Shown piece by piece: positions 34,045 to 64,000 of a DNA stretch of 64,000 nucleotides. A program made the position numbers and the translations under genes. The stretch is from Halomicrobium urmianum (lineage in GTDB: Archaea; Halobacteriota; Halobacteria; Halobacteriales; Haloarculaceae), in NCBI RefSeq assembly GCF_020217425.1, contig NZ_CP084090.1, positions 1,054,001 through 1,118,000 of the forward strand, written 5' to 3'. How positions within the stretch are numbered: the first letter of the stretch is position 1; every line of letters starts with the position of its first letter. Below the pieces are notes generated by a model, which made no database searches, was not told the origin of the DNA, and saw nothing but the letters and a program-made list of their open reading frames with translations.

Positions 34045-34047
34045 CCC

Positions 34048-36178: not shown

Positions 36179-36199
36179 TCCTTGAATGACACCGGCAAG

Positions 36200-37438: not shown

Positions 37439-37486
37439 CTGACCGGTCACCGAACCGGTTTTCCGAAACGACGACACTCACCACCA

Positions 37487-42386: not shown

Positions 42387-42488
42387 ATGACTACACTGAC
42401 TGGAATAGGGCAACTAACTAACGCCAGATCGGCCAAACAATGGCGACAGCACTCGTCCAAGAGTGTTGCAGATTACGTGTACCCATGA
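42387..42488 (+). CDS. Leader ORF, 33 residues, coupled to next gene
   Basis: The frame begins MTTLTGIGQLTNARSAKQWR and ends DYVYP. Its TGA overlaps the ATG of the 42485 gene by the ATGA pattern. With the TATA box in place, a leaderless message would be entered by ribosomes here and passed to the main gene by termination-reinitiation. No Shine-Dalgarno sequence precedes 42485. The peptide resembles nothing I know; it may act only through its translation. Confidence 0.5.
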   Translation: MTTLTGIGQLTNARSAKQWRQHSSKSVADYVYP

Positions 42489-44884
42489 AGGAACTAGATC
42501 AGATGCATTCGGACGAGAAGAGCAGCAGGAGTCGCTCGATGAACCGACGAAACGTGCTCAAAGGGCTCGGAGCCGTCGGACTCGGTAGTTCGATTTCGGG
42601 ACTCGCACAGGCACAAGGACGGGGCAACAGTAAAGACCGCTCTCAAGGGGGTCAAGCCGAGATCCCGATTTCCACGCAGTTCTGGACGTACAACAACTCC
42701 GACCTGTCGGTCGCAGAGCTCATCTACGAATCTGCCAACGCCGGCTACGACGCCGTCGAACCGTTTTACATCGACGACGAGGAAGCGGTCGCCACGGCGC
42801 TCGAGGAGACTGGGCTGGAACTCTCTAGCGCACACGTGGGCATCGAGCAACTCGAAGACGACTTCGAGGAAACGATCGAGACGTACTCCCAGTTCGGTGC
42901 CGACGCGCTCATTCACGCCTACAAAGGCGGTGGCACCTGGGAGAGCAAGGAGTCGATTATCGAGTGGGCAGAACGGGTCAACGAGGTCGCTGACAGAGTC
43001 GCCGAAGCGGGGATGGAGTTCGGCTACCACAACCACGATCAGGAGTTCCAGACGATCGACGGGCGCTACGGGTTCGACATCTTCGCCGAACACGTCAACG
43101 ACAACGTCCACCTGCAGCTGGACGTCGGCTGGGCGCTCGTCGGCGGTGCCGATCCGGTCGCCGTCCTCAATAGACACAGCGACGAGATCCGGTCGCTGCA
43201 CATGAAGGATATGACCGAGGATGGGGGCTTCACCGAGATCGGCGAGGGAGACGTCGACATGAAAGCCCTCGCGAACGTCGCCCGAGGCGCTGCAGACGTC
43301 GACTACCTCATCTACGAATACGACGGCGCACCCGAACCGGTCGAGTCCCTCTACACCGGCGCCGAATTCCTCGAACGCTGGAACGGTCCTCGCCATCGGG
43401 CCGGCGTGCCCTCTGAGGAGTGGCCGTCACGTGTCGTACCTGGTGATGGGGGACTTAGCGGAGACCCACCGTCCGATGCGACGATCCTCTGGGACGGCGA
43501 CAGTGCCACTCTCGACGACTGGCAACACCTCGATGGTCGAGACGCCGAGTGGACTGAACACGGCGCCGAAGACGACGATGACGGCTACGATTACTTCAGG
43601 ACCAATCTCGGAACCGGGGGCATCCAGCCCAAGGAGGCGCTGGGCGACGTGCACCTCCATCTCGAGTGGCAGATCCCCGAGGAATTCGACGGGCTCCAGA
43701 ACGGTCAGGGACCAGGAAACAGCGGCCTGTTCATGATGGAGTCCTACGAGTTCCAGATCCTCCAGAGCCACGACAACCCGACCTACCCGAGCGGGTACGC
43801 CGGGTCGTTTTACCTAGCGACCGACGAGGACGACGACGGCGACGGGGGCAGTGCACCGCTCGTTCTCCCGATTCGACCGCCCGGCGAATGGCAAGAGTTC
43901 GACATAATCTGGCGAGGTCCACGCTCTGAAGACGGCGAACTGGTTCGGTATCCACAGGTGACGCTGTTCTTTAACGGCGTGGCAGTTCAGGTCCACAACG
44001 ATATTCCCGGTCCCAACTGGTGGAAGGACATTCGGGACTTCTTCGCGGACAACGGACATCCTCAGGGCGACGACGGCGAGCTCCTCGAGGAACTCCCCTT
44101 CTACCTGCAGGACCACGGTCGTGACCAAGACGTGGTTCGCTTCCGGAACATCTGGTATCGCGATCTCCCCGAGGATCCCGTCGAGATCGAGGATCCCGAT
44201 GCAATGCCGGAATACGATACCGCCGGTGGCGACTGGGAGGACCCTGAGCTGATTTCCCCTGGCGGGACAGGCACGACTGGTGAAGCGCCGGGCGATGCCG
44301 AGATGCTGATTGACGGTGGTGATCTTAGCGCATGGGAGAGCACTGATGGTGGCGAGCCAGGATGGAACGAGAAGGGTGACTACGTCGAAGTCGAACCGGG
44401 AACCGGTGATATCCAGACCACGAGGTCGTTCGGCGACGCACAGTTCCACATTGAATACCGTGTTCCGACGGACGTCGAAGGAGACGGCCTCGATCGAGGG
44501 GCCAGCGGTGCCCTAGTGCTGGGCGAGTACGAAATACAGATCCTCGACACCTTCATGAACGGCGTCGACGCCGACGCGTGGGCCGGTGCGTACGTCGATC
44601 AGGCCGCACCACATCACGACGCAGTCCGGAGACCTGGTGAATGGCAGCAGCTCGATATCGTCTGGCAGGGGCCACGGTTCGAAGACGGCGAGCTCGTCCA
44701 GGAAGCACAGGCCACTGTCCTGCTTAACGGCGTTACTGTGCAGACGCGACTCTTCGTCGAAGGGCCGAACGCTGACGGCTCGCTCGGTGAGTACGAGGAC
44801 CACGCGTCGGAACTACCGCTCCGGCTCCAGGAAGACGGTAGTCGAGTCCAGTTCCGAAACACCTGGTCGCGATCGCTTGACTGA
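42485..44884 (+). CDS. Tat-exported sugar isomerase/epimerase barrel fused to two DUF1080 domains
   Basis: This 799-residue protein has a Tat motif MNRRNVLKGLGAVGLG near residue 19. A xylose-isomerase-like TIM barrel covers about 57-308 (NAGYDAVEPFYIDDEE; FGYHNHDQEF; LQLDVGWALVGGADP; HMKDM, which carry the metal-binding Glu/Asp/His positions). Two DUF1080 (3-keto-disaccharide hydrolase) domains follow at about 329-562 and 605-799. The first shares NSGLFMM-SYEFQILQSHDN with the large protein at 54788. The family pairing suggests extracellular isomerisation and cleavage of a keto-glycoside. ATGs at 42503 and 42539 are alternative starts. Confidence 0.88.
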   Translation: MKELDQMHSDEKSSRSRSMNRRNVLKGLGAVGLGSSISGLAQAQGRGNSKDRSQGGQAEIPISTQFWTYNNSDLSVAELIYESANAGYDAVEPFYIDDEEAVATALEETGLELSSAHVGIEQLEDDFEETIETYSQFGADALIHAYKGGGTWESKESIIEWAERVNEVADRVAEAGMEFGYHNHDQEFQTIDGRYGFDIFAEHVNDNVHLQLDVGWALVGGADPVAVLNRHSDEIRSLHMKDMTEDGGFTEIGEGDVDMKALANVARGAADVDYLIYEYDGAPEPVESLYTGAEFLERWNGPRHRAGVPSEEWPSRVVPGDGGLSGDPPSDATILWDGDSATLDDWQHLDGRDAEWTEHGAEDDDDGYDYFRTNLGTGGIQPKEALGDVHLHLEWQIPEEFDGLQNGQGPGNSGLFMMESYEFQILQSHDNPTYPSGYAGSFYLATDEDDDGDGGSAPLVLPIRPPGEWQEFDIIWRGPRSEDGELVRYPQVTLFFNGVAVQVHNDIPGPNWWKDIRDFFADNGHPQGDDGELLEELPFYLQDHGRDQDVVRFRNIWYRDLPEDPVEIEDPDAMPEYDTAGGDWEDPELISPGGTGTTGEAPGDAEMLIDGGDLSAWESTDGGEPGWNEKGDYVEVEPGTGDIQTTRSFGDAQFHIEYRVPTDVEGDGLDRGASGALVLGEYEIQILDTFMNGVDADAWAGAYVDQAAPHHDAVRRPGEWQQLDIVWQGPRFEDGELVQEAQATVLLNGVTVQTRLFVEGPNADGSLGEYEDHASELPLRLQEDGSRVQFRNTWSRSLD

Positions 44885-44901
44885 TCTCCACTAGATACTA
44901 G

Positions 44902-44986
44902 CTATAGTAGAGATTGAACGCACTGACACACTCGAGGGGCGCCCGGGGTGCCCCTCGATGGGTGAATAGTTTCGATTTCTACTATA
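44902..44986. repeat. 85-bp hairpin repeat, copy 8
   Basis: Left arm CTATAGTAGAGATTGAACG, centre GGGGCGCCCGGGGTGCCCCT, right arm TTCGATTTCTACTATAG. Orientation 2. The arms carry two uncompensated differences, unlike copies 5 and 6. It starts 18 bases after the stop of the isomerase/DUF1080 gene. Confidence 0.93.
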
Positions 44987-45624
44987 GTCTCCTCGGAGCA
45001 AGAAAACGCGAACCCCCCTCTAAACCGACCCCGTATTTCAGAAATTTCGAGAGATAGCTACGCTGCTGTGCTGGAGCAGCCAGTCGTATTCATCGCGCAC
45101 GTGTGACGGAATGCTATCGAAGTGGAGTCGGTCGTGTACTCTTTTCCCGACGTTGTTGCTTACCGAGCGACTCTACGACGGATCCGCCAGGTAGCGACGG
45201 ACCCGCTCTCGGTCGGCTACTGAGTGCACTACCGCTCTCCGGCGACCCGAACCGCGGCGCAGCAGCTTGCGTTCGTCTAGAGACGAACCTGATCGAGACG
45301 TACCGTTTACAGATACCAGCGATGGGGTACCGAAACTGGGTCGGACAGTGCTTCCCGGTAGCCGACTGTAACGTGTCCCCCCAGGGGAAGGGGACACGGA
45401 CTGTCCGGCACAACGCCGGATCACGTGCCGGTACCGAAGGATTGCAGGTCCGGCATTTCGATAGACGCCGTCGCCCTTGATGGGTTTTCTGGCGCACTAG
45501 GACCCGAGGACGACAGCGCCACCCGGTGTTGCAATCGATCTAGCACGCACCGCCGCTCCGCTACGCACGACGAGGTACCGGTCTTACCCCGTGTTCAGAC
45601 GAACGCGTCCCCGGACGAGGTCAC
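44987..45624. other. Gene-free stretch
   Basis: About 640 bases with no credible protein or repeat. It lies between the convergent isomerase/DUF1080 and DUF3105 genes. Confidence 0.5.
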
Positions 45625-46323
45625 TTATCGAACCGGATTCTCCGGTCCGCGTCCGAGGTATTCGGCGGTGAACGCACGGACTGTCGCGGGATCGTACTCG
45701 TCCATCGTGAGCCGTTTCTCCCACGCAGTCAGCACGTACGCTGCGTCCGGGTCCGCCTGCGGGTTCGGGACGGCGATGAAACTCTGCCAGGGGTCTTGAT
45801 ACGCGTTCGCGTAGCTCTCCAGGTTCTCTCTCTCGTCGGCCGAGAGCTGACTCGGATCGTAATAGACCACGACGGCGCCGTGTTCTAGCGAGTGGACGAG
45901 CGCGCCGTAGGATTGCGGGTCGGAGTACACGCCCGCACTGACGGTCGACGAGTAGTGTCGGCCGCCGGTCGGCGGGACGGTGGAGTAATTGACGTCCGCG
46001 TCTTCCGGGACGTGCTCTATACTCGTGGCCTGTTCGGTCTGTACCTGCGATACGATCGTGTCGTTCCCGTGCTCGGGGAGTGCTACCTGGTTCGCACCTC
46101 CCTGCCCCATGAACATGGTCACGTAGATCGTGACCGCGACTGACAGCAAGAAGACGACCCCGAAGGCGAGTGACCGCGTGCTACCAGGGACGCGGCTCCC
46201 GAGCCGGTTCTCTCGGGGCGGTCCCTCGATCGGTCCGACGTCCTCTCCGTGGGCCTCCCGGCGGTGGAGGCGGTAGTCGTCCTCCGACTCGAACGATGCA
46301 TCACACTTGTCACACGATGGCAT
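45625..46323 (-). CDS. DUF3105 membrane protein with N-terminal C2H2-type zinc finger
   Basis: This 232-residue protein starts at ATG 46323. Cys4, Cys7, His20 and His25 (MPSCDKCDASF, then YRLHRREAH) form a single C2H2-like finger on the cytoplasmic side. A membrane helix follows at about 53-73 (LAFGVVFLLSVAVTIYVTMF). The outside domain matches DUF3105: YSTVPPTGGRHYSSTVSAGV, HSLEHGAVVVYYDP and WEKRL. DUF3105 function is unknown; conserved His residues (GRHY, LEHG) could bind a metal. It is divergent from tatA. Confidence 0.85.
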   Translation of the reverse strand: MPSCDKCDASFESEDDYRLHRREAHGEDVGPIEGPPRENRLGSRVPGSTRSLAFGVVFLLSVAVTIYVTMFMGQGGANQVALPEHGNDTIVSQVQTEQATSIEHVPEDADVNYSTVPPTGGRHYSSTVSAGVYSDPQSYGALVHSLEHGAVVVYYDPSQLSADERENLESYANAYQDPWQSFIAVPNPQADPDAAYVLTAWEKRLTMDEYDPATVRAFTAEYLGRGPENPVR

Positions 46324-46448
46324 ACCCACCGTTTCCGTACAGAGCGTTTCAAATGTTTCGCCTAGGGTTACTAGACTCGCCCGTTCGACATCGGCTGACG
46401 TATCCACCTGACTGGGCGGAAAATCGGCGTCTGATACTAACTCGCAAA

Positions 46449-46456
46449 AAGATTAT
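46449..46456 (+). promoter_or_regulatory. TATA box of tatA
   Basis: ATTATATG lies about 26 bases before the ATG at 46482, so a leaderless message is expected. Confidence 0.55.
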
Positions 46457-46481
46457 ATGATCCACTCACAAATTCGCGAGT

Positions 46482-46736
46482 ATGCCGCAAGTTCCAGTTG
46501 CCCAGATAGGCATGCCAGGGACGCAGGAGATGATGATCATTCTGGCGCTGGCGATCATGCTGTTCGGGGCGCAGAAAATCCCGAAGCTCGCCAGGTCGAC
46601 CGGAGAAGCGATGGGCGAATTCAAGAAGGGGCGCAGGCAGGTCGAACAGGAACTCAACGAACTCAAGGAGGAGTCCGGCGAGTCGGCCTCCAGCGAAAAC
46701 GCGAAGACGGCCTCGTCGGAACCGGTGCGGGAGTAA
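46482..46736 (+). CDS. tatA: Sec-independent translocase TatA/E-type subunit
   Basis: This 84-residue protein has the TatA pattern: a short outside N-terminus, one membrane helix (QEMMIILALAIMLFGAQKIP), the hinge FG, an amphipathic helix (KLARSTGEAMGEFKKGRRQV) and an acidic tail. TatA oligomers open the membrane for folded Tat substrates. It lies among genes for at least six Tat-type exported proteins, so it may be a dedicated or extra copy. No tatC is in the window. Confidence 0.93.
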   Translation: MPQVPVAQIGMPGTQEMMIILALAIMLFGAQKIPKLARSTGEAMGEFKKGRRQVEQELNELKEESGESASSENAKTASSEPVRE

Positions 46737-47677: not shown

Positions 47678-50600
47678 ATGACAGATGACAGTTCCACGAA
47701 CGACGCGGAGGACGTATCGACGTTGACCACTGACCGCCGGCGGTTCCTGCAGGCAGCCACCGTCGCTGGCACCGGCCTCACCGGCATCGGCGGTTTCGCC
47801 AGCGCGCAGCAGAGTAGCGACACCCACATCGAACTGGAGGCCGTGACGGTCGAGACCAGCGGCGGTCGCGGCCGCTCGGAGTTCGCCTGGGAGGACGGCG
47901 AGGGCGGCGTCGTACGCGGCCCGCCCGAGGAGGTCTGTTCGATAGCCGGCGGCACCCACCTCTGGGTAGGCGTCTCGCCCGACTCCATCGCCGAACTGAC
48001 CAACCCCACGCTGGAACTCACGGCCGGCGAGACCTACACGGTCGAGTGGACCAACACCGACGGCGAGGAGCACAACTTCGTCATCGCCGACGCCGACGGT
48101 ACCGAACTCGTCGCGTCCGAGACCGTCTCTGAGGAAGGCGCCACCCAGTCCGTCGAGTTCGAGGCCACGGAAGAGATGGCCACCTACTACTGCGACCCAC
48201 ATTCGACCTCCCAGCGGGGAGACGTCCGGATCGCCGACGGCACGCCCTTCGAACTGAGCGGGCTGGACCCCTCGGAGGCGACCGTCACGATGGGTGACGT
48301 GGCGAGCTTCGACGTCACCGTCACGCACACCGGCGACGGCAGCGAGACGGGGACGGTGACGCTGTCGGTGGACTCCCAGCAGATGGACTCGCGGGAGGTG
48401 ACGCTGGACGCCGGCGCGTCCACGACGGTCTCCCTGGACGTGGACACGACGGGCCTGACCGCGGGCGATCGCACGGTCGTCGTCGCGAGCGGCGGCTCGC
48501 GGGTCAGCGGAACGCTCACCGTCGAAGCGGACGACGAGTGGATCCAGCTGTTCAACGGCGAGGACCTGGACGACTGGACGCCGAAGTTCTCCGGTCGCGA
48601 GCCCGGCGTGAACTACAACGACGTCTTCACCGTCGAAGACGGCGTCCTCAGGGTCGGTTACGGCGACTACGGCGACGAGTGGGACAGCGTGTTCGGCCAC
48701 CTGTTCTACGACGGCGAGTTCTCCCACTACGCGCTCCGGGCGGAGTACCGGTTCGTCGGGGAGCAGGTCTCCGGCGCCCCGGACTGGGCCTTCCGGAACA
48801 ACGGGCTGATGCTCCACGGCCAGACCCCGGAGGAGATGGACGTCGATCAGGACTACCCCGACTCCATCGAGGTCCAGCTCCTGGGGCAGTCGGCCGACAG
48901 CGACGGGACCCGGACGACCGCCAACGTCTGTACGCCGGGAACCAACATCGTCATGGACGGGTCGCTACACGAGCAGCACTGCACCAGTTCCAGTTCCGAC
49001 ACCTATCGAGGCGACCAGTGGGTGACCGTCACGGTCATCGTTCGTGGAAACGAGCTGATACGTCACGTCGTCGAGGACGACGGCGTCGTCATGCAGTACA
49101 CGGAGCCCCAGCTGGACGACGGTACGCCGCTCGACTCGGGGACGATCTCCATCCAGTCGGAGAGCCACCCGACGGAGTTCCGCACGATCGAACTGAAGCC
49201 GATCGATCCCGAGGCGCCGATCGAAGCGGTCGAGCCGTCGAGCCCGCTCTGGAGCAGCTACACCAAGGACGAGCTGGCCTCGGGCCTCGAACAGCCGATG
49301 GCGATCGAGGTCACGCCGGACCACCGGGTCTTCTTCACCACGCGCGGGCCGCCGGTCGACGGGGACGGAAACACCGCGACGACGGAGGTCGGCGTGGTCG
49401 ATCCGGAAACCGAGGAGGTCACGACGGCGCTCGAACTCGACGTCCACACCTCCGGCGAGGACGGGTTGCAGGGGCTCACCCTGGACCCGGACTTCGAGGA
49501 GAACGGCTGGATCTACCTGTACTACTCCGCGCCCCACGAGATCATCGACGAGGAACCGCACAAGCGGCTGTCGCGCTTCACGGTCAACGGCGACACGATC
49601 GATCCGGAGTCCGAAGTCGAGATCCTCAGGGTCCCGGCGGCGGACAACCCCTGCTGTCACGTCGGCGGTGACCTCGAGTTCGGGCCGGAGGGGAACCTCT
49701 TCCTCTCGACCGGCGACGACACGAGCCCGTTCCAGTCCAGCGGCTACACTCCGATCGACGAACGCGACGGTCGCGAGCTGTTCGACGCGCAGCGGTCGTC
49801 CGCGAACACGAACGACCTCCGCGGGAGCATCCTCCGGATCAGTCCGAACGACGACGGCACCTACGACATCCCGGACGGCAACATGTTCACCGGTCCGGAG
49901 TACGCCGACGCGCGCGAGAACGACCTCGTACGGGAGGAAATCTACGTGATGGGGTGTCGCAACCCCTTCCGCATGGACGTCGACGAGGACGGCGTCCTGT
50001 ACTGGGCCAATTACGGTGCCGACGCGGGCGCCTGGGACGCCGAACGCGGACCGCCGGGCATCGTCGAGTTCAACCGCGCAGAGGAACCCGGCTTCTACGG
50101 GTGGCCGTACGTCGTCGGGCCCGACATCCCCTTCGTCGACGGCGAGTTCGCCACAGAGGACGGCGAGCGGGTGTTCAACTCCTCCGGCGAGCCGTTCGAT
50201 CCGGAGAACCTGCGGAACACCTCGCCGAACAACACCGGACTCACTGAGTTACCGGAGCCCGAGCAGCCGGTGATCTGGTACCCCTACAGCTGGGACGGCC
50301 TGCTGAACTCGCCGCCCGACTACGCTACGGAGTACCTGCCCGACGAGCCGCCGTTCCCGGACTTCGAGGGCGGCGCTCCGATGGGCGGGCCGGTCTACGA
50401 TTTCCGGGACTCCTACGACCAGAACGCCCTGCCGGAGCGCTTTTTCGACGGGAAGCAACTCATCGGCGAATGGGGTCAGCAGTGGCTCAGGTACGTGTCC
50501 TACGACGACGACGGGGCGGTCGAGGAGATCGACGAGTTCATGCCGGACGAGTCGTTCCTCTCGCCGATGGACCTGACCGTCGGTCCGGACGGGACGCTGT

Positions 50601-53357: not shown

Positions 53358-53604
53358 GACGGCGAAGGACACCTGAACTCCGACGAGGGCCGATCCCGAT
53401 GCTTCGGAGGTAGTGGACGGCAGCGGCCCTCGCCCTCGCCGCACGTTTGCTGTTAGTTACTTGCCGTTCTGTCCTAGGTAGTGTTCAGTTCTCCATCAAA
53501 TATAAGTAGGATCGTTGATTATCTAAGACCGGTCACACGTTCGCGACGGGGAGTGATCGCCGCGCGGAGGTGTAACACCACCCATCAACGGGGTACACAG
53601 AGCA

Positions 53605-54693
53605 ATGTCCAAGGACACATCTGACGGTCTGTACGACGCAGACAGACGTAGCGTACTCAAATACCTGGGAACGTCGGGGGTAGTCGCCGCCGGCTCTGGG
53701 CTCGGGCTGACGATGTTCAGCGGCTCGGGCGCGGCCGCGTCGGCGGACATCTCGGCGTCGAACCCGGAAGCGCTGTCGAGCGACGACGGCACGGTCGACG
53801 AGGTGTTCATCAAGCCGTCGCTGTCGGTTTCGTGGGACGGCTTCGACGACGTCGTCGGCAAAGTCCGCATCCTGGTCGAGGCCGCCACCGGCGCGTCCGA
53901 CCTGGACCCGCCCGAAATCGCCGACCTCGACTTCATGCCGGTGTTCCGCGCCACGGGTTACGCCAACGGGACGGACAACGACAGCGAAGAGGAGACGGGC
54001 CCGGGCACCAGCGGCCAGTACCAGATCAACTGGTTCGACGGCGACCGCCGTATCACCCTGTTCGACGAGGACGGCGCGCCCGACTACGAGAACGCCGGGT
54101 ACAACTGCGGCGCGACGATGGAGTCGTACCTCAGCGGCACGCTCATGGGCGACCCCATCGACGGCGCCCAGAACGGCTTCTACGGCGCCGCCGGCAGCAC
54201 CGACGCCTTCGAGGAGACCACCGACGCCGGCACCAACGACACGACGGTATATCTTCGGTACACGATCAGTCTCCACCGGCCGGACATCTCGTTCGTCACC
54301 GAAGACAACTACGCGCTGGACGCCGAGGACGTCCGCCCGTTCTCGCCGCTAGCGATGGTGGACGGTGACGGCGGCCAGTATCCCGACCTCACCGCCGAGG
54401 AGTACGGTACTACGGTCACCAGCGACGACGCCGACGACTACGACGCGCTGTCGGCCGGCGACCTCGTCCATGCCACGGCCGTCCCCTACGGCGTCATGCA
54501 GGACAGCACCGACCACCCGGCGCTGATGACCAGTTACGCCAACTTCACCGTCACCGTCGACAACGAACAGGCCAGCGCCAACGCCTCCGGCGACACCGGC
54601 GCCGGCGCCGAAGTCGACGAGGACGTCGGGACCCTCACCGACGGCGACGCAGGCGGCAACGAGACGAGCGGCAACGAAAGCTCGAACGAGTAA
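53605..54693 (+). CDS. Tat-exported beta-rich protein, unknown family (copy 1)
   Basis: This 362-residue protein has a Tat signal (DADRRSVLKYLGTSG) and a helix rich in Gly/Ala ending SGAAASAD. A beta-rich domain follows (EVFIKPSLSVSWDGFDDVVG; GQYQINWFDGDRRITLFDED; YLRYTISLHRPDISFVTEDN). One Cys (YNCGAT) is visible. The tail is Asn/Gly/Ser/Glu-rich with sequons. It is paralogous to 61211 and always sits just upstream of a short ORF and a giant enzyme gene, so it is probably a partner or structural subunit of that enzyme. Family unknown. Confidence 0.82.
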   Translation: MSKDTSDGLYDADRRSVLKYLGTSGVVAAGSGLGLTMFSGSGAAASADISASNPEALSSDDGTVDEVFIKPSLSVSWDGFDDVVGKVRILVEAATGASDLDPPEIADLDFMPVFRATGYANGTDNDSEEETGPGTSGQYQINWFDGDRRITLFDEDGAPDYENAGYNCGATMESYLSGTLMGDPIDGAQNGFYGAAGSTDAFEETTDAGTNDTTVYLRYTISLHRPDISFVTEDNYALDAEDVRPFSPLAMVDGDGGQYPDLTAEEYGTTVTSDDADDYDALSAGDLVHATAVPYGVMQDSTDHPALMTSYANFTVTVDNEQASANASGDTGAGAEVDEDVGTLTDGDAGGNETSGNESSNE

Positions 54694-54707
54694 CAGAGGA
54701 ACGAGAG

Positions 54708-54791
54708 ATGAACGACCTACGGCGGACGGACACTGACGTACCGGACGAGCGCAACCGACTGATCAGTTCCCGGAACTGGACGACAGCATGA
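54708..54791 (+). CDS. Leader ORF, 27 residues, coupled to giant gene B
   Basis: The frame begins MNDLRRTDTDVPDERNRLIS and ends NWTTA. The TGA overlaps the ATG of the giant gene (ATGA). GAGG lies about 8-10 bases before its own ATG. A related ORF precedes the third giant gene at 62368, sharing the RR-TD-DV pattern. It lies 14 bases after the 53605 gene, so the three ORFs form one transcription unit. Confidence 0.45.
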   Translation: MNDLRRTDTDVPDERNRLISSRNWTTA

Positions 54792-57700
54792 CAACCGAAG
54801 ATATGGACCAACAGGCTGATGCGGACGGTGAATCGGAATCGAACGACGACTGGCGTCGCGTCCTGCAAGCGGGCATCGGCGCGGCCGGGCTGACCGGCCT
54901 GGCCGGCCTCACCAGCGCCCAGCAAGGCAGTCAGAATCTCATCGAACTAGAGGCGGTGACGGTCGAGACCAGCGGCGGTCGCGGCCGCTCGGAGTTCGCC
55001 TGGGAGGACGGCGAGGGCGGCGTCGTACGCGGCCCGCCCGAGGAGGTCTGTTCGATAGCCGGCGGCACCCACCTCTGGGTAGGCGTCTCGCCCGACTCCA
55101 TCGCCGAACTGACCAACCCCACGCTGGAACTCACGGCCGGCGAGACCTACACGGTCGAGTGGACCAACACCGACGGCGAGGAGCACAACTTCGTCATCGC
55201 CGACGCCGACGGTACCGAACTCGTCGCTTCGGACACGATCGCCGAAGAGGGCGCCACCCAGTCCGTCGAGTTCGAGGCCACCGAGGAGATGGCCACCTAC
55301 TACTGCGGGCCTCACTCGGAGTCCCAGAGCGGCTCCATCGAGGTCAGCGTCTCGGCCGGTGAGGTCGAGGTCAGTAACCTCGATCCGAGCAGCGTGACGG
55401 TCTCGCAGGGCGACGCGGTCGACTTCTCGGCGACGGTGTCCAACACCGGCGACAGCAGCCTCACGCAGGTCGTCTCCCTCTCGATCGACGGGAGTCAGGT
55501 CGCCTCCAAGGAAGTGTCACTCGACGCGGGCGCGGAGACGTCCGTTTCGTTCACGGGCGTCGACACGTCTGACCTCTCGGACGGGGACCACACCGTCACT
55601 ATCGCCAGCGGCGGCTCGCAGGTCTCCGGGACGCTCACCGTCGAGGTGGACGACGCCGACGGCGACTGGCACCGCGACCTCGACGTGCCGACGAATCCCG
55701 AGGAGGCGACGAACTGGGACAACTACGAGGTCACCAACGTCTTCTCGACCGGGACGATCTCAAGCGAGTACGACCTCAAGGACGGCGAAGAGGGCGAGTG
55801 GATGCAGATGGACGTCGACGCCCAGGGCCGCATCTGGGTGGTCACCCGCGGGGCGTCCTTCGTCACCGAAGGCGACGGCTACGCCGAGGTCGCCTGGGTC
55901 GACCCCGACTCCGGCGAGCATCAGCTCGCTCTCGAGATCCCGGTCGCGTTCCACGGGGGCCACGTCGCCGATTCCGGCGAGGTGTCCGCCGCCCGCGAAC
56001 TCGGCGGGCAGGGAATCGCCATCGACCCCGACTTCGAGGACAACGGGTACGTGTACGTCATGTACCACCCCTCGAGCGACGACCTGGAACTCGTGGACAA
56101 CCCCTACGACGACAACATCGTCTTCGCGAACATGCGCGTGTCGCGGTTCACGATGCAGGACGACGGAACGCTCGACCCCGACTCCGAGAAGGTCGTCTTT
56201 ACGGTCCCCGAACAGTGGCACACCTGCTGTCACCACGGCGCCTACATCACCTTCGGGGAAGACCGCGAGTTCTACATCTCCACCGGCGACAACTCCAACA
56301 ACGTCGGCAATCCCGACAACCTGGTCAACTGGTTCATGGGCGACGAGCGCCAGGGTATGATCCACGGTCGTCCTGGCCCGGTCGCCGACGCCCAGCGCAC
56401 CTCCGGGAACACGGCCGACAAGCGCGGCAAGGTTCACCGGATCGTCCTCAACGAGGACGGCACCTACGACATCCCCGACGGCAACCTCAAGGAACACTGG
56501 GAAGAGGAGACCGGCGAGTCGTACTCCGACGACGAGTTCCTGCCGTCGATCTACGTGATGGGCCTGCGCAACCCCTTCACCATCACCTACGACGATCACA
56601 GCGGCTACCTCTGGACCGGTCACTACGGCAACGACGGCGGGAGCATCAGCGACCTCGGAATGAGCGGCTTCGGGGACTACCACCTGTGGTGTGAACCGGG
56701 TAACGCCGGCTACCCCTACTACCGGGCGTACTACCCCTACCGGGACTACGACTTCGAGAACGACGAGGTCGGTCAGCCGTTCTGGCCGGACAACCTGCGC
56801 AACGAGTCGGTGAACAACACGGGCATCGAGAACATCCCGAACGTGACGCCGGCGCTGATCTGGCATCCCCAGAGCTTCGACGACTACGAGAACGCCCTCG
56901 ACATCCACCCGTGGCTCGACCAGCCCCGACCCGGCGAAGTCACCTACCCCGAGCTAGATGCCGGTGGATCGGCAGACGTCGGCGTCGTCTACCGCTACGA
57001 CGAGGGGTACAGCGAGCACGCGCTCCCGCCGTACTTCGACGGGAAGCCGTTCTTCATGAACCCGAGCAACGCCGACGTCGTCCGCTACCTGACGTTCAAC
57101 GACGACGGCAGCCTCGACATCAACGAGTTCGGAGCGCGCGACGGCGTCGCCGCGGCCTACGACATGAAGGTCCTGCCGGACGGTCGGCTGGCCATCATGG
57201 GGATGTACTCGGGGATCCACATCGTCGAGTACAACGGCCCGGCGCCCGGTTACCAGCCCCCGCCCGAAGAAGAACAGCCCGACCGCGTCGAGCCCGCCGC
57301 CGACGGTCTCAGCGGCGACCCGCCGGGCGACGCGACCGTCCTCTGGGACGGCGACGACGCCACGCTGGACGGCTGGGAACAGCTGGACGGATCCGAAGCG
57401 CAGTGGAACGAGACCGCCGACTACTTCGAGGTAGATCCGTCTGACCCGGACGTTGAGGGCAATGTCCGGCCGAAGGAGGATCTGGGTGACGTCCACCTCC
57501 ACCTCGAGTGGCGCGTTCCGGAAGAGGTCGCCGGCGAAGCCGAGGGCCAGGGGCCGGGCAACAGTGGCCTGTTCATGATGGAGACCTACGAGTTCCAGAT
57601 CCTCCAGAGCCACGACAACCCAACCTACCCGAGCGGCTACGCTGGATCCTTCTACAAGTACCAGGAGGGCGGCGGCAGCGCGCCGCTCGCGATGCCGATC

Positions 57701-60643
57701 CGCCCGCCGGGCGAGTGGAACTCCTACGATCTGATCTGGCGCCGCCCCCGGTTCGACGACGACGGCAACGTCGTCCGTCTGCCGCAGGCGACGCTGCTGT
57801 TCAACGGCGTCGTCGTCCAGCAGCACCTCAACATCCCGGGTCCCGTCTGGTACGACACGCTGTACCCGTTCGACCACGAGGACTTCGGCCACCCGCGCGA
57901 CGAGAACGGCAACTTCCTGACGGAAGCGCCGTTCCACCTGCAGAACCACGGCAACGACTACGACGTCGTGCAGTACCGCAACGTCTGGTACCGCGACCTG
58001 CCCGAGCGCCCGGTCACCGAGAGCGAGCACCCGGACAACGTTCCGGAGTACTCGACCTCCGGCGGTCCCTACTACCTGCCGAACGGCGACCAGTACCAGC
58101 CGCAGCAGATTAGCCCCGGTGGATCCGGTACCACCGGCACGCCGCCGGGCGACGCCGACGTGTTGCTCGACGACTCGATCACCATCCAGCCCGGCGACGG
58201 CGACTGGGTGAGCGACAGCAAGTACGGCGACGCTCAGGTGCACGTCGAGTACCGCATCCCCGAGGACGTCGAGGGCGAGGGGCCGCTGCGCGGCAACAGC
58301 GGCGTCCTGATGATGGGCAACTACGAGATCCAGATCCTCGACACCTGGGAGAACCCGGTCGAAGCCGACGAGTGGGCCGGCGCCTACACCCACCAGAACG
58401 GGCCGCATCACGACGCGGTCCGCGAACCCGGCGAGTGGCAGCAGCTGGACCTCGTCTGGCAGGCGCCACGGTTCTCGGGCGGCGAGCTCGAGAAGCCGGC
58501 GCAGGTCACGGCGTTCCTCAACGGCGTGGCCGTCCAGACGCGCCTCGTCGTCGACGGACCTAACAAAGGCTTCACCGTCAACCCGTACAGCGAACACGGG
58601 AAGATGCCGCTGCGCCTCCGGGAGGAAGGCAGCGAGATCGACTTCCGCAACGCCTGGATCCGGGAGGAGCAAGCCGAACTCGTCAGCGACGAACCGTCCG
58701 AGCCGGAGCAGCTGTCGGCGCCCATCGGGCTCGACCTCGGCGGCCTCCACACCGACGAGACCGTCACGGTCGACGGCCTCGAGTTCCTGCCGACGCCGTC
58801 TCAGTCCGAGCAGGTCGGCATCGAGGAGAACCGGACGCTCGACGCGGACGAGAAGTACTGGCCCGAGCAGGTTACAGTCGAACCCGAACCGCGTGAGTCG
58901 CCGGGCGCGACTGACTCGGGTCGGCCGCTGAACGAGGAGCAGAATCTCGGAACCAATCCGGACATCGAGGGCACCGAGCACGACTCGATGTACTGGACCG
59001 AGCAGTGGTCGAACGACGAACTCAACTACACGTTCGACATCGAGAACGGCGTCTACGAGGTGACGCTACACTTCGCGGAGGTCTGGTTCGCCGGCGAGGA
59101 CACGCGCGTGTTCAGCGGCTCCGTCAACGGCGAGACTGTCTTCGAGGAGCTCGACCTCTACGCCGACCACGGTCCGGACACCGCCGTGACGTTCTCGCAC
59201 GTCACCGAGGTGACGGACAACGAACTGGTCGTCTCGCTCGAGTCGTCCGTCGAGAACCCGAAGATCAGCGGCATCGAGATCCGGGAAGTGGACAAGGTCG
59301 CCCACTACGACGCCACGACGCTGGAGCTCTCGGACGGCGACGCGGTGTCGTCCTGGTCCGACGCCGGCGGCGTCGGCCCCGATCTGACTCAGAGCGACTC
59401 CGCCGCTCAGCCGACCTTCCAGACGGACGTCGCTAACGGCAACCCGACGGTCCGCTTCGAGGGCGACGGCGACTACATCAACGCCGACGAGGTCGTCACC
59501 GAGGACACCGCGGGCGTCACGATGGCCGCGGCGTTCCGGACGAGCGACCCCACCGTTCCCCGCCAGACGATCATGTACAACGGGAGCGACGGTGAGCTGA
59601 ACGGCTACGGCGCCTACGTCAACAACGAGGCAGGGTCTGGACCTGCGTCCGAAGGCTACGTCAACGGCCTCTACGGCGGCGTGAACTGGTGGTGGTCGGA
59701 CACGACCGTCGGTGCTGACAACTTCCACGTCGTGACCTGGACCGTCCCCGAGGACGAGCCCGATCACCCGGTGCTCCGACTGGACGGCCAGGAGCTTGAC
59801 ACGGAACTGCAGATCGACCCGGCCGAACCCGAGACGCCGACCACCCAGTTCGGCATCGGCTACGACGACGGCGCCGTCGACGAGCGACCGCCGTTCTTCG
59901 CCGGCGACATCGGCGAGGTGCGGGTCTACAACCGCGAGCTGTCGGGCGCCGAGCTGTCACAGCTCGAGAGCGACCTCGGCGAGAAGTGGGGCGCGGACGT
60001 CCAGGCACCGGACCTGTCGGCTGGACTGGCCGGCCACTGGACGTTCGAGTCCGGTAACGTCGACGGCGACACCGTCCTCGACAAGTCCGGCAACGGTCAC
60101 GACGGGACCGTTCAGGGCGGCGTGACGACCGACCTCTCGGCCCCGACCGTGGGTGGCGCCGCGGAGTTCAACGGCAGCGACGGGACCGTCGTCGTCCCCA
60201 ACGCCGATGGGCTCGACCCGGCCGCGTACACGGTCTCGGCCTGGCTCAAGACGGACGCCACCGGTCCGTGGGCAGCGGTCCTCGGAAAGGAGAACTCGAT
60301 GTGGTGTGGCTTCAACAACGACACGGGTCAGCCGCGCTTCGACCCGTACAACGGTGCAGAACAGGGTGACTACTTCAGTTCGGACACCGCTGTGGACGAC
60401 GGCAGCTGGCACCACGTCGTCTATCGTCACGCACCGTCCGAGGACACCTCGCGTATCTACGTCGACGGCCAGCAGGTGGGCTCCATGGACGGGGCCACTG
60501 AATCGCCTGCCGCCGACACCTCGCTCGGAATCGGCTCGAAGTCGGGCTTCAAGGACTGGTTCAGCGGCACGCTCGCAGACGTGCGCCTCTACGACCGTCC
60601 CCTCTCCGAGTCGAAGATCTCCCTGCTCAGCCAGCAGGGTTGA
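54788..60643 (+). CDS. Giant Tat-exported enzyme B: cupredoxin, sugar dehydrogenase propeller, two DUF1080, malectin-like, two LamG-like
   Basis: 1,951 residues. In order: Tat-like start (DDWRRVLQAGIGAAG); cupredoxin (about 52-185; EEHNFVI, YYCGPHSESQ, axial Gln); CARDB-like (about 190-285); GSDH propeller (about 305-817; EGEWMQMDVDAQGRIWVVTR, HTCCHHGAYITFGEDREFYI); DUF1080 (about 840-1075); DUF1080 (about 1105-1295); malectin-like (about 1310-1500; ENGVYEVTLHFAEVWFAGED); concanavalin-like (about 1503-1730); LamG (about 1738-1951; LAGHWTFESGNVDGDTVLDK). It has the same machinery as enzyme A but with the DUF1080 domains after the propeller and no C-terminal cupredoxin. Predicted role: surface glycoside oxidation and cleavage. 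Confidence 0.88.
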   Translation: MTTEDMDQQADADGESESNDDWRRVLQAGIGAAGLTGLAGLTSAQQGSQNLIELEAVTVETSGGRGRSEFAWEDGEGGVVRGPPEEVCSIAGGTHLWVGVSPDSIAELTNPTLELTAGETYTVEWTNTDGEEHNFVIADADGTELVASDTIAEEGATQSVEFEATEEMATYYCGPHSESQSGSIEVSVSAGEVEVSNLDPSSVTVSQGDAVDFSATVSNTGDSSLTQVVSLSIDGSQVASKEVSLDAGAETSVSFTGVDTSDLSDGDHTVTIASGGSQVSGTLTVEVDDADGDWHRDLDVPTNPEEATNWDNYEVTNVFSTGTISSEYDLKDGEEGEWMQMDVDAQGRIWVVTRGASFVTEGDGYAEVAWVDPDSGEHQLALEIPVAFHGGHVADSGEVSAARELGGQGIAIDPDFEDNGYVYVMYHPSSDDLELVDNPYDDNIVFANMRVSRFTMQDDGTLDPDSEKVVFTVPEQWHTCCHHGAYITFGEDREFYISTGDNSNNVGNPDNLVNWFMGDERQGMIHGRPGPVADAQRTSGNTADKRGKVHRIVLNEDGTYDIPDGNLKEHWEEETGESYSDDEFLPSIYVMGLRNPFTITYDDHSGYLWTGHYGNDGGSISDLGMSGFGDYHLWCEPGNAGYPYYRAYYPYRDYDFENDEVGQPFWPDNLRNESVNNTGIENIPNVTPALIWHPQSFDDYENALDIHPWLDQPRPGEVTYPELDAGGSADVGVVYRYDEGYSEHALPPYFDGKPFFMNPSNADVVRYLTFNDDGSLDINEFGARDGVAAAYDMKVLPDGRLAIMGMYSGIHIVEYNGPAPGYQPPPEEEQPDRVEPAADGLSGDPPGDATVLWDGDDATLDGWEQLDGSEAQWNETADYFEVDPSDPDVEGNVRPKEDLGDVHLHLEWRVPEEVAGEAEGQGPGNSGLFMMETYEFQILQSHDNPTYPSGYAGSFYKYQEGGGSAPLAMPIRPPGEWNSYDLIWRRPRFDDDGNVVRLPQATLLFNGVVVQQHLNIPGPVWYDTLYPFDHEDFGHPRDENGNFLTEAPFHLQNHGNDYDVVQYRNVWYRDLPERPVTESEHPDNVPEYSTSGGPYYLPNGDQYQPQQISPGGSGTTGTPPGDADVLLDDSITIQPGDGDWVSDSKYGDAQVHVEYRIPEDVEGEGPLRGNSGVLMMGNYEIQILDTWENPVEADEWAGAYTHQNGPHHDAVREPGEWQQLDLVWQAPRFSGGELEKPAQVTAFLNGVAVQTRLVVDGPNKGFTVNPYSEHGKMPLRLREEGSEIDFRNAWIREEQAELVSDEPSEPEQLSAPIGLDLGGLHTDETVTVDGLEFLPTPSQSEQVGIEENRTLDADEKYWPEQVTVEPEPRESPGATDSGRPLNEEQNLGTNPDIEGTEHDSMYWTEQWSNDELNYTFDIENGVYEVTLHFAEVWFAGEDTRVFSGSVNGETVFEELDLYADHGPDTAVTFSHVTEVTDNELVVSLESSVENPKISGIEIREVDKVAHYDATTLELSDGDAVSSWSDAGGVGPDLTQSDSAAQPTFQTDVANGNPTVRFEGDGDYINADEVVTEDTAGVTMAAAFRTSDPTVPRQTIMYNGSDGELNGYGAYVNNEAGSGPASEGYVNGLYGGVNWWWSDTTVGADNFHVVTWTVPEDEPDHPVLRLDGQELDTELQIDPAEPETPTTQFGIGYDDGAVDERPPFFAGDIGEVRVYNRELSGAELSQLESDLGEKWGADVQAPDLSAGLAGHWTFESGNVDGDTVLDKSGNGHDGTVQGGVTTDLSAPTVGGAAEFNGSDGTVVVPNADGLDPAAYTVSAWLKTDATGPWAAVLGKENSMWCGFNNDTGQPRFDPYNGAEQGDYFSSDTAVDDGSWHHVVYRHAPSEDTSRIYVDGQQVGSMDGATESPAADTSLGIGSKSGFKDWFSGTLADVRLYDRPLSESKISLLSQQG

Positions 60644-61210
60644 TCTAGCTGCGGACTGAGACTTTCCCCCCCGGGGCACTTCGCCCCGCGGGAATCCCGC
60701 GTCCACGGACGCTCCGTCGAATCTGTGTCCGCGACCTCGGGGCCGGCGGAGCGCAGGCCGCCGTGACCGCGCTCCGCTGTCGACGACTGGCTGGTGAGTT
60801 CTGGTCGACTGTCCGCCCGCCTCGGCCGCCCCGAGTCGCTTTCCCCGTCGCGAGCACGCACGGCAGTGTACCCGTCTGGTCATCGTCCCCGTCGCGTGTT
60901 CTTCGGGTCGTTGTATCGACGCCAGTACGTCGATCGGCCGAGCGACCGCTGGCTCGCGAAGACGCGCGGAACGGGTTGGCGAGGCCGCGAAGCATCACTT
61001 ACTGATTCGGCTCTTGATCGCGCCAGTACCACAGCCAGTGTGATTATAGACTTCACATCCGGATTCTGTACGATCACGGGGCATTCGTTTCGTCCCCAAA
61101 AACCTTTTAGTCAGTCGGCATGTTTGTACCGTCACGCACTTCCGGGTTCGAGGCAGCCGCGCGGAAGTGCGCCAAATACTCACACCCCAGTCGGGTGGTG
61201 AGAGAGATAT
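60644..61210. other. Gene-free stretch
   Basis: About 570 bases with only shadow ORFs. The CCCCGGGGCACTTCGCCCC segment at about 60668-60687 is GC-rich and partly self-complementary. I see no promoter that stands out; AACCTTTTAGTC at about 61101-61112 is one weak candidate for the next gene. Confidence 0.45.
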
Positions 61211-62353
61211 ATGCCACGGCTCATATTAGACAACATACACGACACGGATCGACGCAGCGTGCTGAAAATGCTCGGTGCAGGCGGTGCCGCAGCCGCCGGT
61301 GGCGGGTTCGGGCTCACCGCCCTGACTGGTTTAGGTGCGGCCGCCTCTGCCGACATCTCGGCCTCGAATCCCGAGGCACTCACGAGCGACGACGGCTCGG
61401 TCGACGAGGTGTTCGTCAAGCCGTCGCTGTCAGTCTCCTGGGACGGCTTCGACGACGTCGTCGGGAAAGTACGGATCCTGATCGAGGCCGCCACCGGCGC
61501 GTCCGACCTGGATCCGCCCGAAATTCAGGAACTCGATTACACGCCCGTCTTCAGGGCGACGGGTTACGCCAACGGGACGGACAACGACAGCGAAGAGGAG
61601 ACGGGCCCGGGCACCAGCGGCCAGTACCAGATCAACTGGTTCGACGGCGACCGCCGTATCACCCTGTTCGACGAGGACGGCGCGCCCGACTACGAGAACG
61701 CCGGGTACAACTGCGGCGCGACGATGGAGTCGTACCTCAGCGGCACGCTCATGGGCGATCCGATCGACGACGCCCAGAACGGCTTCTACGGCGCCGCCGG
61801 CAGCACCGACGCCTTCGAGGAGACCACCGACGCCGGCACCAACGACACGACGGTATATCTTCGGTACACGATCAGTCTCCACTGGCCGGACATCTCGTTC
61901 GTCACCGAAGACAACTACGCGCTGGACGCCGAGGACGTCCGCCCGTTCTCGCCGCTAGCGATGGTGGACGGTGACGGTGGTCAATATCCCGACCTCACCG
62001 CCGAGGAGTACGGTACTACGGTCACCAGCGACGTCGCCGACGACTACGATGCGCTGTCGGCCGGCGACCTCGTCCATGCCACGGCCGTCCCCTACGGCGT
62101 CATGCAGGACAGCACCGACCACCCGGCGCTGATGACCAGCTACGCCAACTTCACCGTCACCGTCGACAACGAACAGGCCAGCGCCAACGCCTCCGGCGAC
62201 ACCGGCGCCGGCGCCGAAGTCGACGAGGACGTCGAAACCATCGCCGACGACGACGCAAGCGGCAACAGCACTGACGACGCCGATACACTGCCCGACGCTG
62301 ACAACGGCACCGTCGGTAACCAGACCGGTGGTAACGGAACCTCGAACGAGTAG
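61211..62353 (+). CDS. Tat-exported beta-rich protein, unknown family (copy 2)
   Basis: 380 residues, paralogue of the 53605 protein. The Tat signal differs (DTDRRSVLKMLGAGG, then GLTALTGLGAAAS), but the central part from about SEEETGPGTSGQYQINWFDG through NYALDAEDVRPFSPLAMVDG is nearly identical in protein and DNA. The tail is longer and Asn/Asp-rich (DADTLPDADNGTVGNQTGG). GGTGGTGAGAG about 8-14 bases before the ATG could be a Shine-Dalgarno sequence. It is followed by a leader ORF and the third giant gene. Confidence 0.82.
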   Translation: MPRLILDNIHDTDRRSVLKMLGAGGAAAAGGGFGLTALTGLGAAASADISASNPEALTSDDGSVDEVFVKPSLSVSWDGFDDVVGKVRILIEAATGASDLDPPEIQELDYTPVFRATGYANGTDNDSEEETGPGTSGQYQINWFDGDRRITLFDEDGAPDYENAGYNCGATMESYLSGTLMGDPIDDAQNGFYGAAGSTDAFEETTDAGTNDTTVYLRYTISLHWPDISFVTEDNYALDAEDVRPFSPLAMVDGDGGQYPDLTAEEYGTTVTSDVADDYDALSAGDLVHATAVPYGVMQDSTDHPALMTSYANFTVTVDNEQASANASGDTGAGAEVDEDVETIADDDASGNSTDDADTLPDADNGTVGNQTGGNGTSNE

Positions 62354-62367
62354 ATTAGAGCCGCACG

Positions 62368-62457
62368 ATGAGACACCGACGACTGACAGACGCTGACGTA
62401 TCGAACGACGCAACCGACCGATCGATTCCCCGAAGGAGGCGACAGCATGACGACTGA
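62368..62457 (+). CDS. Leader ORF, 29 residues, overlapping giant gene C
   Basis: The frame begins MRHRRLTDADVSNDATDRSI and its stop lies 11 bases inside the next gene. It corresponds to the 27-residue ORF at 54708 (RR-TD-DV pattern kept) but the C-terminal frame differs. Here a strong GGAGG lies 8 bases before the 62447 ATG, so the giant gene can start on its own. Confidence 0.35.
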   Translation: MRHRRLTDADVSNDATDRSIPRRRRQHDD

Positions 62458-64000
62458 AGATACAGATCAAATGTCAAACGCGGACGGCGAATCGGAATCG
62501 AACAGCAACCTGCAGCAGTTCCTGAAAGCGGGCATCGGCGCGGCCGGGCTGACCGGCCTGGCCGGCCTCACCAGCGCCCAGCAAGGCAGTCAGAACCTCA
62601 TCGAACTAGAGGCGGTAACGGTCGAGACCAGCGGCGGTCGCGGCCGCTCGGAGTTCGCCTGGGAGGACGGCGAGGGCGGCGTCGTGCGCGGCCCGCCCGA
62701 GGAGGTCTGTAACATCGTCGGCGGGACCCACGTCTGGGTGGGCGTTTCGCCCGACTCCATCGCTGAGGTCACGAATCCGACGCTGGAGCTGACCGCCGGC
62801 GAGACCTACACGGTCGAGTGGACCAACACCGACGGCGAGGAGCACAACTTCGTCATCGCCGACGCCGACGGCACCGAACTCGTCACCTCTGATACCGTCT
62901 CCGAGGAAGGCGCCACCCAGTCCGTCGAGTTCGAGGCCACGGAAGAGATGGCCACCTACTACTGCGGGCCTCACTCGGAGTCCCAGAGCGGCTCCATCGA
63001 GGTCAGCGTCTCGGCCGGCGAGGTTGAGGTCAGTAACCTCGATCCGAGCAGCGTGACGGTCTCGCAGGGCGACGCGGTCGACTTCTCGGCGACGGTGTCC
63101 AACACCGGCGACAGCAGCCTCACGCAGGTCGTCTCCCTCTCGATCGACGGGAGTCAGGTCGCCTCCAAGGAAGTGTCACTCGACGCGGGCGCGGAGACGT
63201 CCGTTTCGTTCACGGGCGTCGACACGTCTGACCTCTCGGACGGGGACCACACCGTCACTATCGCCAGCGGCGGCTCGCAGGTCTCCGGGACGCTCACCGT
63301 CGAGGTAGACGCGGTAGACAGCGACTGGCATCGCGACCTCGACGTGCCGATCAACGCCGAGGAGGCGACGAACTGGGACAACTACGAGGTCACCAACGTC
63401 TTCTCGACCGGGACGATCTCAAGCGAGTACGACCTCAAGGACGGCGAAGAGGGCGAGTGGATGCAGATGGACGTCGACGCCCAGGGCCGCATCTGGGTGG
63501 TCACCCGCGGGGCGTCCTTCGTCACCGAAGGCGACGGCTACGCCGAGGTCGCCTGGGTCGACCCCGACTCCGGCGAGCATCAGCTCGCTCTCGAGATCCC
63601 GGTCGCGTTCCACGGGGGCCACGTCGCCGATTCCGGCGAGGTGTCCGCCGCCCGCGAACTCGGCGGGCAGGGAATCGCCATCGACCCCGACTTCGAGGAC
63701 AACGGGTACGTGTACGTCATGTACCACCCCTCGAGCGACGACCTGGAACTCGTGGACAACCCCTACGACGACAACATCGTCTTCGCGAACATGCGCGTGT
63801 CGCGGTTCACGATGCAGGACGACGGAACGCTCGACCCCGACTCCGAGAAGGTCGTCTTTACGGTCCCCGAACAGTGGCACACCTGCTGTCACCACGGCGC
63901 CTACATCACCTTCGGGGAAGACCGCGAGTTCTACATCTCCACCGGCGACAACTCCAACAACGTCGGCAATCCGGATAACGAAGTTAATTGGTTCATGGGC
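62447..64000 (+). CDS. Giant enzyme C, N-terminal part (runs off window)
   Basis: 518 codons are visible and the frame is open at the right edge. It mirrors enzyme B: cupredoxin (EEHNFVI; YYCGPHSESQ), CARDB-like, and the start of the GSDH propeller (EGEWMQMDVDAQGRIWVVTR; CCHHGAYITFGEDREFY). From about 62960 the DNA is almost identical to 55300 onward. The leader differs: NSNLQQFLKAGIGAAG replaces DDWRRVLQAGIGAAG, so the twin arginines are lost. Export by Tat is therefore in doubt for this copy. The rest of the gene is not in the window. Confidence 0.85.
   Translation, partial: MTTEDTDQMSNADGESESNSNLQQFLKAGIGAAGLTGLAGLTSAQQGSQNLIELEAVTVETSGGRGRSEFAWEDGEGGVVRGPPEEVCNIVGGTHVWVGVSPDSIAEVTNPTLELTAGETYTVEWTNTDGEEHNFVIADADGTELVTSDTVSEEGATQSVEFEATEEMATYYCGPHSESQSGSIEVSVSAGEVEVSNLDPSSVTVSQGDAVDFSATVSNTGDSSLTQVVSLSIDGSQVASKEVSLDAGAETSVSFTGVDTSDLSDGDHTVTIASGGSQVSGTLTVEVDAVDSDWHRDLDVPINAEEATNWDNYEVTNVFSTGTISSEYDLKDGEEGEWMQMDVDAQGRIWVVTRGASFVTEGDGYAEVAWVDPDSGEHQLALEIPVAFHGGHVADSGEVSAARELGGQGIAIDPDFEDNGYVYVMYHPSSDDLELVDNPYDDNIVFANMRVSRFTMQDDGTLDPDSEKVVFTVPEQWHTCCHHGAYITFGEDREFYISTGDNSNNVGNPDNEVNWFMG

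Follow-up and report, generated by a model that had tools for sequence, protein, structure and literature searches.

Haem-fused sugar-dehydrogenase-like proteins are found in many copies in the genomes of Bacteroidota and of the Planctomycetota-Verrucomicrobiota-Chlamydiota (PVC) group, and the function of the haem-binding CxxCH/PSCyt proteins of the latter is described as unknown (PMC5615132). As regards the breakdown of oxidised sugars, DUF1080 is genetically tied to the use of 3-keto-glycosides in Caulobacter, which gives bacterial genetic support for cleavage (PMC9007349), and AtOGE is a Mn-dependent 3-keto-O-glucoside beta-eliminase with His132, Asp163, His189 and Glu233 as metal ligands and His134 as catalytic residue (PMC10628242). 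Here, we describe a gene cluster of the haloarchaeon Halomicrobium urmianum whose very large proteins ("giants", G1 to G8) combine domains of these kinds with cupredoxins. The cluster begins in the window, i.e., the whole stretch of 64,000 nucleotides that was analysed (C1:1054001-1118000 of a 4.25-Mb genome in six contigs); all coordinates below are window coordinates, and the stretch of the cluster past 64000 lies outside the window. Genes were found by GC content at third codon positions (GC3) and protein acidity, and domains by Pfam and NCBIfam scans, per examined genome stretch. On balance, and with modest confidence, we favour the reading that this cluster, shaped by duplication and module shuffling, serves to break down glycosides oxidatively outside the cell, with electrons leaving through fused copper domains.

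Domains and active sites of the giant proteins

An earlier note on this DNA had proposed an exported system for oxidation plus cleavage of glycosides with a fused electron carrier, a proposal that is consistent with the domains, export signals and intact site residues described here. Every domain that it named is present in the window well above the Pfam cut-off, as are the TatA gene and the two paralogous small proteins with a twin-arginine translocation (Tat) signal. Its idea of one chain with all functions stands in part: carrier, glucose/sorbosone dehydrogenase (GSDH) propeller, DUF1080 and binding modules do share a chain in G2 and G3, but the isomerase-like barrel is on another chain (G1) than the cupredoxin, and the two occur together only in an 1874-aa protein outside the window. 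Its extent of 22 kb fell short, the cluster being approximately three times longer.

The GSDH propellers match PF07995 in Pfam, and matches of a structure model agree with a six-bladed propeller. A profile built from ten GSDH domains can be aligned with sugar dehydrogenases dependent on pyrroloquinoline quinone (PQQ) and has conserved equivalents of His144, Asp163, Arg228 and Asn229 of soluble glucose dehydrogenase (sGDH), whose role we take to be the one given in the sGDH literature. These are H751, D770, R851 and N852 in G2, and H482, D501, R594 and N595 in G3; the catalytic positions His, Asp and Arg-Asn vary hardly or not at all across the 33 sequences compared. The catalytic half of the quinoprotein site is retained in the propellers; the second-half PQQ residues (sGDH Lys377, Arg406, Arg408) fall outside the aligned region of the profile alignment. 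In an AlphaFold model of G2 residues 141-1095, the predicted confidence (pLDDT) exceeds 90 across most of the propeller and is low in the DUF1080 region; the model finds its best PDB matches among PQQ sugar dehydrogenases, and hedgehog-interacting protein (HHIP) comes lower in the list. The loss of catalytic residues from the propeller, which the earlier note had named as evidence that would speak against it, is not seen, and the copper-site and barrel eliminase residues are likewise intact. Separately, a CCH motif (adjacent cysteines before the catalytic His, e.g., G2 residues 749-751) is present in 95 of 121 haloarchaeal and bacterial members; its cysteines possibly form a vicinal disulfide next to the cofactor.

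On the cleavage side, eight DUF1080 (PF06439) domains lie above the curated cut-off in the genome, with a match to PDB 4QHZ (1.9e-39), and by analogy with the bacterial case they are predicted, probably, to cleave 3-keto-glycosides. The barrel of G1 has AtOGE as its best match (PDB 8BVK, 3.3e-17) and keeps five out of five of its active-site residues: H197, D228, H254 and E293 for the metal, and H199 as catalytic residue. G1 is hence a putative beta-eliminase with an intact site, for which a keto substrate would be expected.

All cupredoxins of the cluster are intact as type 1 copper sites (His, Cys-x2-His, and axial Met or Gln). Their N-terminal domains show Cys-x2-His with axial Gln (7/7), and the C-terminal ones keep Cys-x2-His and Met in every haloarchaeal GSDH or DUF7133 protein found. 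This split has a Fisher p of 2e-6, a value that is overstated since the sequences are related.

Haem and copper among the relatives

The GSDH sample comprised (i) the best 80 of 589 matched loci from a genome-wide scan with the GSDH alignment, which biases it toward close relatives; and (ii) haloarchaeal loci from genome searches plus a few plasmid loci, to a total of 38 haloarchaeal and 83 bacterial open reading frames (ORFs). Among the haloarchaeal ORFs, 24 carry a cupredoxin, 14 neither carrier and none a CxxCH motif; among the bacterial ones, CxxCH is found in 26 (all Bacteroidota), neither carrier in 57 (mostly Actinomycetota) and cupredoxin in none. The DUF7133 propellers follow a similar division: 11 of 20 bacterial ORFs have CxxCH and nine an azurin-like C-terminus (such as YVCTFPGHWRGMNG), with no ORF having both or neither, while all the haloarchaeal proteins have a cupredoxin (four proteins in one set; seven ORFs from six loci in another, where one protein is split over two ORFs). 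No CxxCH occurs in any cluster protein, nor in the haloarchaeal GSDH or DUF7133 proteins examined. The fused electron carrier, be it haem or copper, is interchangeable across the GSDH/DUF7133 superfamily. The cytochrome-c assembly family PF01578 is absent from 10 of 11 carrier genomes, that of H. urmianum included (positive controls worked), and in haloarchaea as a whole cytochromes c are scarce and puzzling (PMC4429474); both facts would account for the persistence of copper forms alone in these organisms.

In the DUF7133 tree, a single clade of nine haloarchaeal proteins is placed next to a copper protein of Rhodothermota (96/93), a position which suggests that this clade probably arrived with copper already in place. 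The G8 propeller groups with ThuA-DUF7133-cupredoxin proteins of Bacteroidota and Rhodothermota. The DUF7133 protein of Haladaptatus sp. DYF46 (L033) has a halocyanin-like C-terminus even though it branches among the haem-bearing proteins (95/90, within 100/99), which makes it the strongest candidate for a genuine replacement of haem by copper. In the GSDH tree, haloarchaeal and bacterial sequences are fully apart on a 100/100 branch, and the bacterial haem-bearing sequences form one clade; the haem and copper fusions of GSDH may be independent gains.

Two simpler histories were discarded. A haloarchaeal invention of the copper swap is rejected, given that the C-termini of Bacteroidota ThuA-DUF7133 proteins are azurin-like cupredoxins and haloarchaeal ThuA-DUF7133 adjoins the Rhodothermota branch. 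One recent swap in GSDH is not supported either, since approximately ten cupredoxin changes would be needed on a tree with a 100/100 separating branch.

Proposed mechanism and alternatives

In the favoured reading, exported propeller dehydrogenases, of the GSDH type and, elsewhere in the cluster, of the DUF7133 type, would oxidise a sugar and reduce the type 1 copper domains of their own chain in one-electron steps; from these, electrons would reach halocyanin and then a terminal acceptor, for which the clustered copper nitrite reductase (NirK) is one candidate and an oxidase another. Cleavage of the oxidised glycoside, which is probably a 3-keto compound, would fall to the DUF1080 domains and the metal-dependent isomerase-like barrels, through beta-elimination or hydrolysis; malectin, LamG, carbohydrate-binding module (CBM) 9 and PKD modules would target the substrate, and an importer of the basic membrane protein (BMP) type would take up the small product. 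The copper domain would do the job of the c-type haem fused to many bacterial relatives, and copper in place of haem would suit an organism that has no cytochrome-c assembly protein. The weakest step is the substrate and the cofactor of the propeller.

Several observations weigh against this reading. Fusion is not obligatory, because 14 of the 38 haloarchaeal GSDH ORFs and most of the actinobacterial ones have no fused carrier; many of those 14 are Tat-lipoprotein-like, and two of them (L149, L156) have a separate cupredoxin ORF no more than several kb away. Characterised GSDH enzymes act on C1, not C3. As for PQQ synthesis, PqqB scored below cut-off and PqqC was not found, by a search that matched no control genome; a claim of absence of PQQ synthesis was dropped for want of a working positive control. 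Of the four very large Tat-type proteins of the earlier note, one, G4, which lies mostly outside the window, lacks a twin-arginine pair at its N-terminus (62447-62580; LQQFLK versus WRRVLQ in the near-identical G3), and its Tat export is doubtful. Finally, DUF1080 overlaps CBM66 (PMC5673643).

The propellers might instead act at C1 of aldoses, either free or at reducing ends, and yield lactones, like sGDH and the sugar dehydrogenase Asd, with DUF1080 and isomerase domains as ordinary hydrolases, lyases and binding modules and no 3-keto link. Halorubrum saccharovorum oxidises lactose to lactobionic acid, and the closest solved structures, the PQQ sugar dehydrogenases, are C1 oxidisers. Moreover, a DUF1080 protein has been termed an endo-xanthanase/lichenase (PMC9007349). 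Nevertheless, haloarchaea and bacteria alike have fusions of GSDH with DUF1080 or ThuA, which together with the Caulobacter genetics and the intact beta-eliminase site of G1 makes this account unlikely. It is very unlikely, in turn, that the propellers lack catalytic function and serve for binding or as scaffolds, as in HHIP, which has the same fold, and that the cupredoxins are structural or copper-scavenging: HHIP is indeed among the fold and sequence matches, the PQQ-synthesis genes were not found (PqqC by that same uncontrolled search) and the copper Cys has gone from the N-terminal cupredoxins of the Haladaptatus, Natronococcus and G183 proteins, but the near-invariant catalytic residues and the C-terminal copper sites, intact throughout, point the other way, and the haem/copper substitution in relatives makes most sense for an electron-carrying domain.

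The earlier note had placed everything in a single polysaccharide-oxidising machine at the cell surface. To this we give some credence, given the several binding modules per chain and the fact that the near-identical G3 and G4 differ in their modules, as if for different polymers. It is doubtful all the same: no transmembrane segment, lipobox or other anchor was found in any giant, so that "secreted" seems a better fit than "surface machine"; G1, the only barrel giant in the window, has neither carrier nor propeller; and a BMP-type importer is expected for small molecules. An extension of the favoured reading, which we regard as quite unlikely, is that the N-terminal Gln site (stellacyanin-like, low potential) and the C-terminal Met site (higher potential) form a built-in potential ladder feeding NirK, that is, a haem-free, extracellular, sugar-driven nitrite reduction. 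The NirK sequence contains the ligand motifs PHNVDLH, YHC, YHVSSGM and FHPIGN, which, judged against the usual NirK motifs, account for both copper sites; the gene is apparently intact.

Organisation and surroundings of the cluster

The cluster spans 42.4 to ~101.6 kb (roughly 60 kb), of which the window holds the left third, and contains eight giants, five small proteins, NirK, a Gfo/Idh oxidoreductase and an extra isomerase barrel (Table 1). The giant frames in the window are open over 814 to 1951 aa, with GC3 of ~0.9 (0.73 in the G1 frame) and strongly acidic products, which rules out chance frames. G4 has the core of G3 but ends in malectin-CBM9; the two share 94% identity over 4 kb, beyond which their binding modules differ, a pattern that points to duplication followed by a swap of targeting modules.

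Table 1. Features of the cluster and of related loci (window coordinates, except for L033)
Feature	Position	Strand	Evidence and remarks
BMP-type ABC importer	36182..41228	+	Pfam; just upstream of cluster
Importer genes	lipoprotein substrate-binding protein 36182-37438, ATPase 37487-39049, permeases 39046-40176, 40173-41228	+	Pfam
G1, 814 aa, exported	42440..44884	+	Pfam: AP_endonuc_2 barrel (1.5e-16), two DUF1080 (1.3e-51); Tat start probably 42539
G1 domains	barrel 42665-43399, DUF1080 a 43445-44185, DUF1080 b 44279-44875	+	Pfam
TatA family gene	46482..46736	+	PF02416, 1.6e-14
G2, 1889 aa	47408..53077	+	Pfam; Tat start more likely near 47678; Tat motif TDRRRFLQ
G2 domains, first half	cupredoxin 47951-48241, DUF1080 48536-49201, GSDH propeller 49256-50674, NPCBM_assoc 50726-50959	+	Pfam
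G2 domains, second half	GH2-type sugar-binding 51026-51397, LamG 51473-52156, cupredoxin 52748-53068	+	Pfam
S1, small Tat-exported protein	53605..54693	+	five-copy family; directly upstream of G3
G3, 1951 aa	54788..60643	+	Pfam, local profiles
G3 domains, first half	cupredoxin 55064-55348, CARDB 55397-55600, GSDH 55787-57226, DUF1080 57323-57997	+	Pfam
G3 domains, second half	DUF1080 58169-58663, malectin 58706-59293, LamG-like, LamG 60008-60640	+	Pfam, local profiles
S2, paralogue of S1	61211..62353	+	89% identical to S1; directly upstream of G4
G4, 1684 aa	62447-67501	+	cut by window end at 64000; cupredoxin 62723-63007, GSDH from 63446
Copper nitrite reductase	68211-69491		outside window; TIGR02376, 380 bits (cut-off 296)
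Isomerase-like barrel protein	69719-70726	-	outside window
Gfo/Idh/MocA oxidoreductase	71729-73012		outside window
S3	start 73576		outside window; small Tat family copy
G5, G2-like	74570-79318		outside window
S4	start 81333		outside window; small Tat family copy
G6	82565-88189		outside window; cupredoxin-barrel-barrel-ThuA-GSDH-malectin-PKD-cupredoxin
S5	start 88538		outside window; small Tat family copy
G7	89538-94943		outside window; cupredoxin-ThuA-GSDH-malectin-LamG-LamG
G8, 1669 aa	96602-101611	-	outside window; cupredoxin-ThuA-DUF7133-HEAT-CBM-PKD-cupredoxin
L033 protein	L033 189-4889		Haladaptatus sp. DYF46; DUF1080-DUF1080-malectin-DUF7133-malectin-cupredoxin

All five small genes lie directly upstream of a giant, forming five small/giant pairs, and a role of their products in the system is presumed. 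The other copies are 86-97% identical to S1. Relatives of this family occur in 63 of 392 haloarchaeal genomes, mostly without giants, and close copies are paired with giants in the H. urmianum cluster and in Halorubrum saccharovorum. The PDB, Pfam, plasmids, phages and viral contigs gave no useful relatives, and an AlphaFold model from three sequences reached a pLDDT of 32.

The BMP-type importer is conserved near the cupredoxin-GSDH genes of three other haloarchaea: its substrate-binding protein is 66% identical to that of Haladaptatus pallidirubidus, 52% to that of Natronococcus sp. CG52 and 64% to that of Halocatena salina. Genes for isomerase-like barrels, DUF1080 or Gfo/Idh proteins are likewise present at these loci, two of which have a multicopper oxidase as well. 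Of 392 haloarchaeal genomes, 14 have DUF1080 above cut-off, and none of the six congeners does; this patchy distribution suggests horizontal acquisition.

To the left of the cluster, window positions 24000-36000 have a lower GC content (53-60%) and a DDE transposase (34659-35492), and this stretch looks like an island border. It also includes a Type I phosphodiesterase (25500-26885), 31-35% identical to those beside the Haladaptatus, Natronococcus and Halocatena cupredoxin-GSDH loci. Those loci recall the bacterial ebo cluster in that they have TatD, UbiA and isomerase-like genes, two of them with an inositol-3-phosphate synthase gene as well; no other ebo-like genes were seen in the window. 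A second cupredoxin-GSDH protein of the genome is encoded at ~588 kb of C1 (L180 7606-11403), a few genes from a DUF7405 protein.

Comparison with known systems

The earlier note knew of no haloarchaeal pathway of this form, which holds for the literature searched; the domain combinations, however, are already known in bacteria, where the fusions ThuA-GSDH-haem, ThuA-DUF7133-cupredoxin, DUF7133-haem and GSDH-DUF1080 were found. The parts and several fusions are thus known, and what seems new, not having been found described in that literature, is (i) the copper-only haloarchaeal set; (ii) its scale (eight giants and five small partners); and (iii) the exclusivity of haem and copper. Copper on the same catalytic domains wherever haem c is not made amounts to a natural experiment, which argues that the fused domain is an electron acceptor. 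Function could be tested with soluble copper proteins, easier for spectroscopy than surface haem proteins, and the cluster points to an oxidative, non-hydrolytic breakdown of glycosides in archaea.

In general terms, four known systems come close. The PVC CxxCH proteins (TIGR02604/DUF7133) and PSCyt proteins are likewise large and multidomain, with a propeller, a carrier, carbohydrate-binding modules such as LamG and many paralogues; G8 scores 165 bits against TIGR02604 (cut-off 122), but it lacks CxxCH and has a cupredoxin at both ends. The Bacteroidota ThuA-GSDH-cytochrome c proteins also unite ThuA and GSDH on one chain with the carrier C-terminal to the propeller, although theirs is a c-type haem, whereas in the haloarchaeal proteins it is a halocyanin-like cupredoxin and further binding modules are present. 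The sGDH/Asd PQQ sugar dehydrogenases share the fold and the first-half active-site residues, but identity is ~20%, the surroundings of the second-half PQQ site are not alignable and the carriers of the cluster are fused. Lastly, the bacterial 3-keto-glycoside pathway (LacABC, DUF1080, AtOGE-type eliminases, Gfo/Idh and ThuA) has its DUF1080, isomerase-like eliminase, Gfo/Idh and ThuA counterparts all in the cluster; but while that pathway has the GMC flavoprotein LacA, of which there is none among the genes examined, oxidation is here assigned to the fused propellers.

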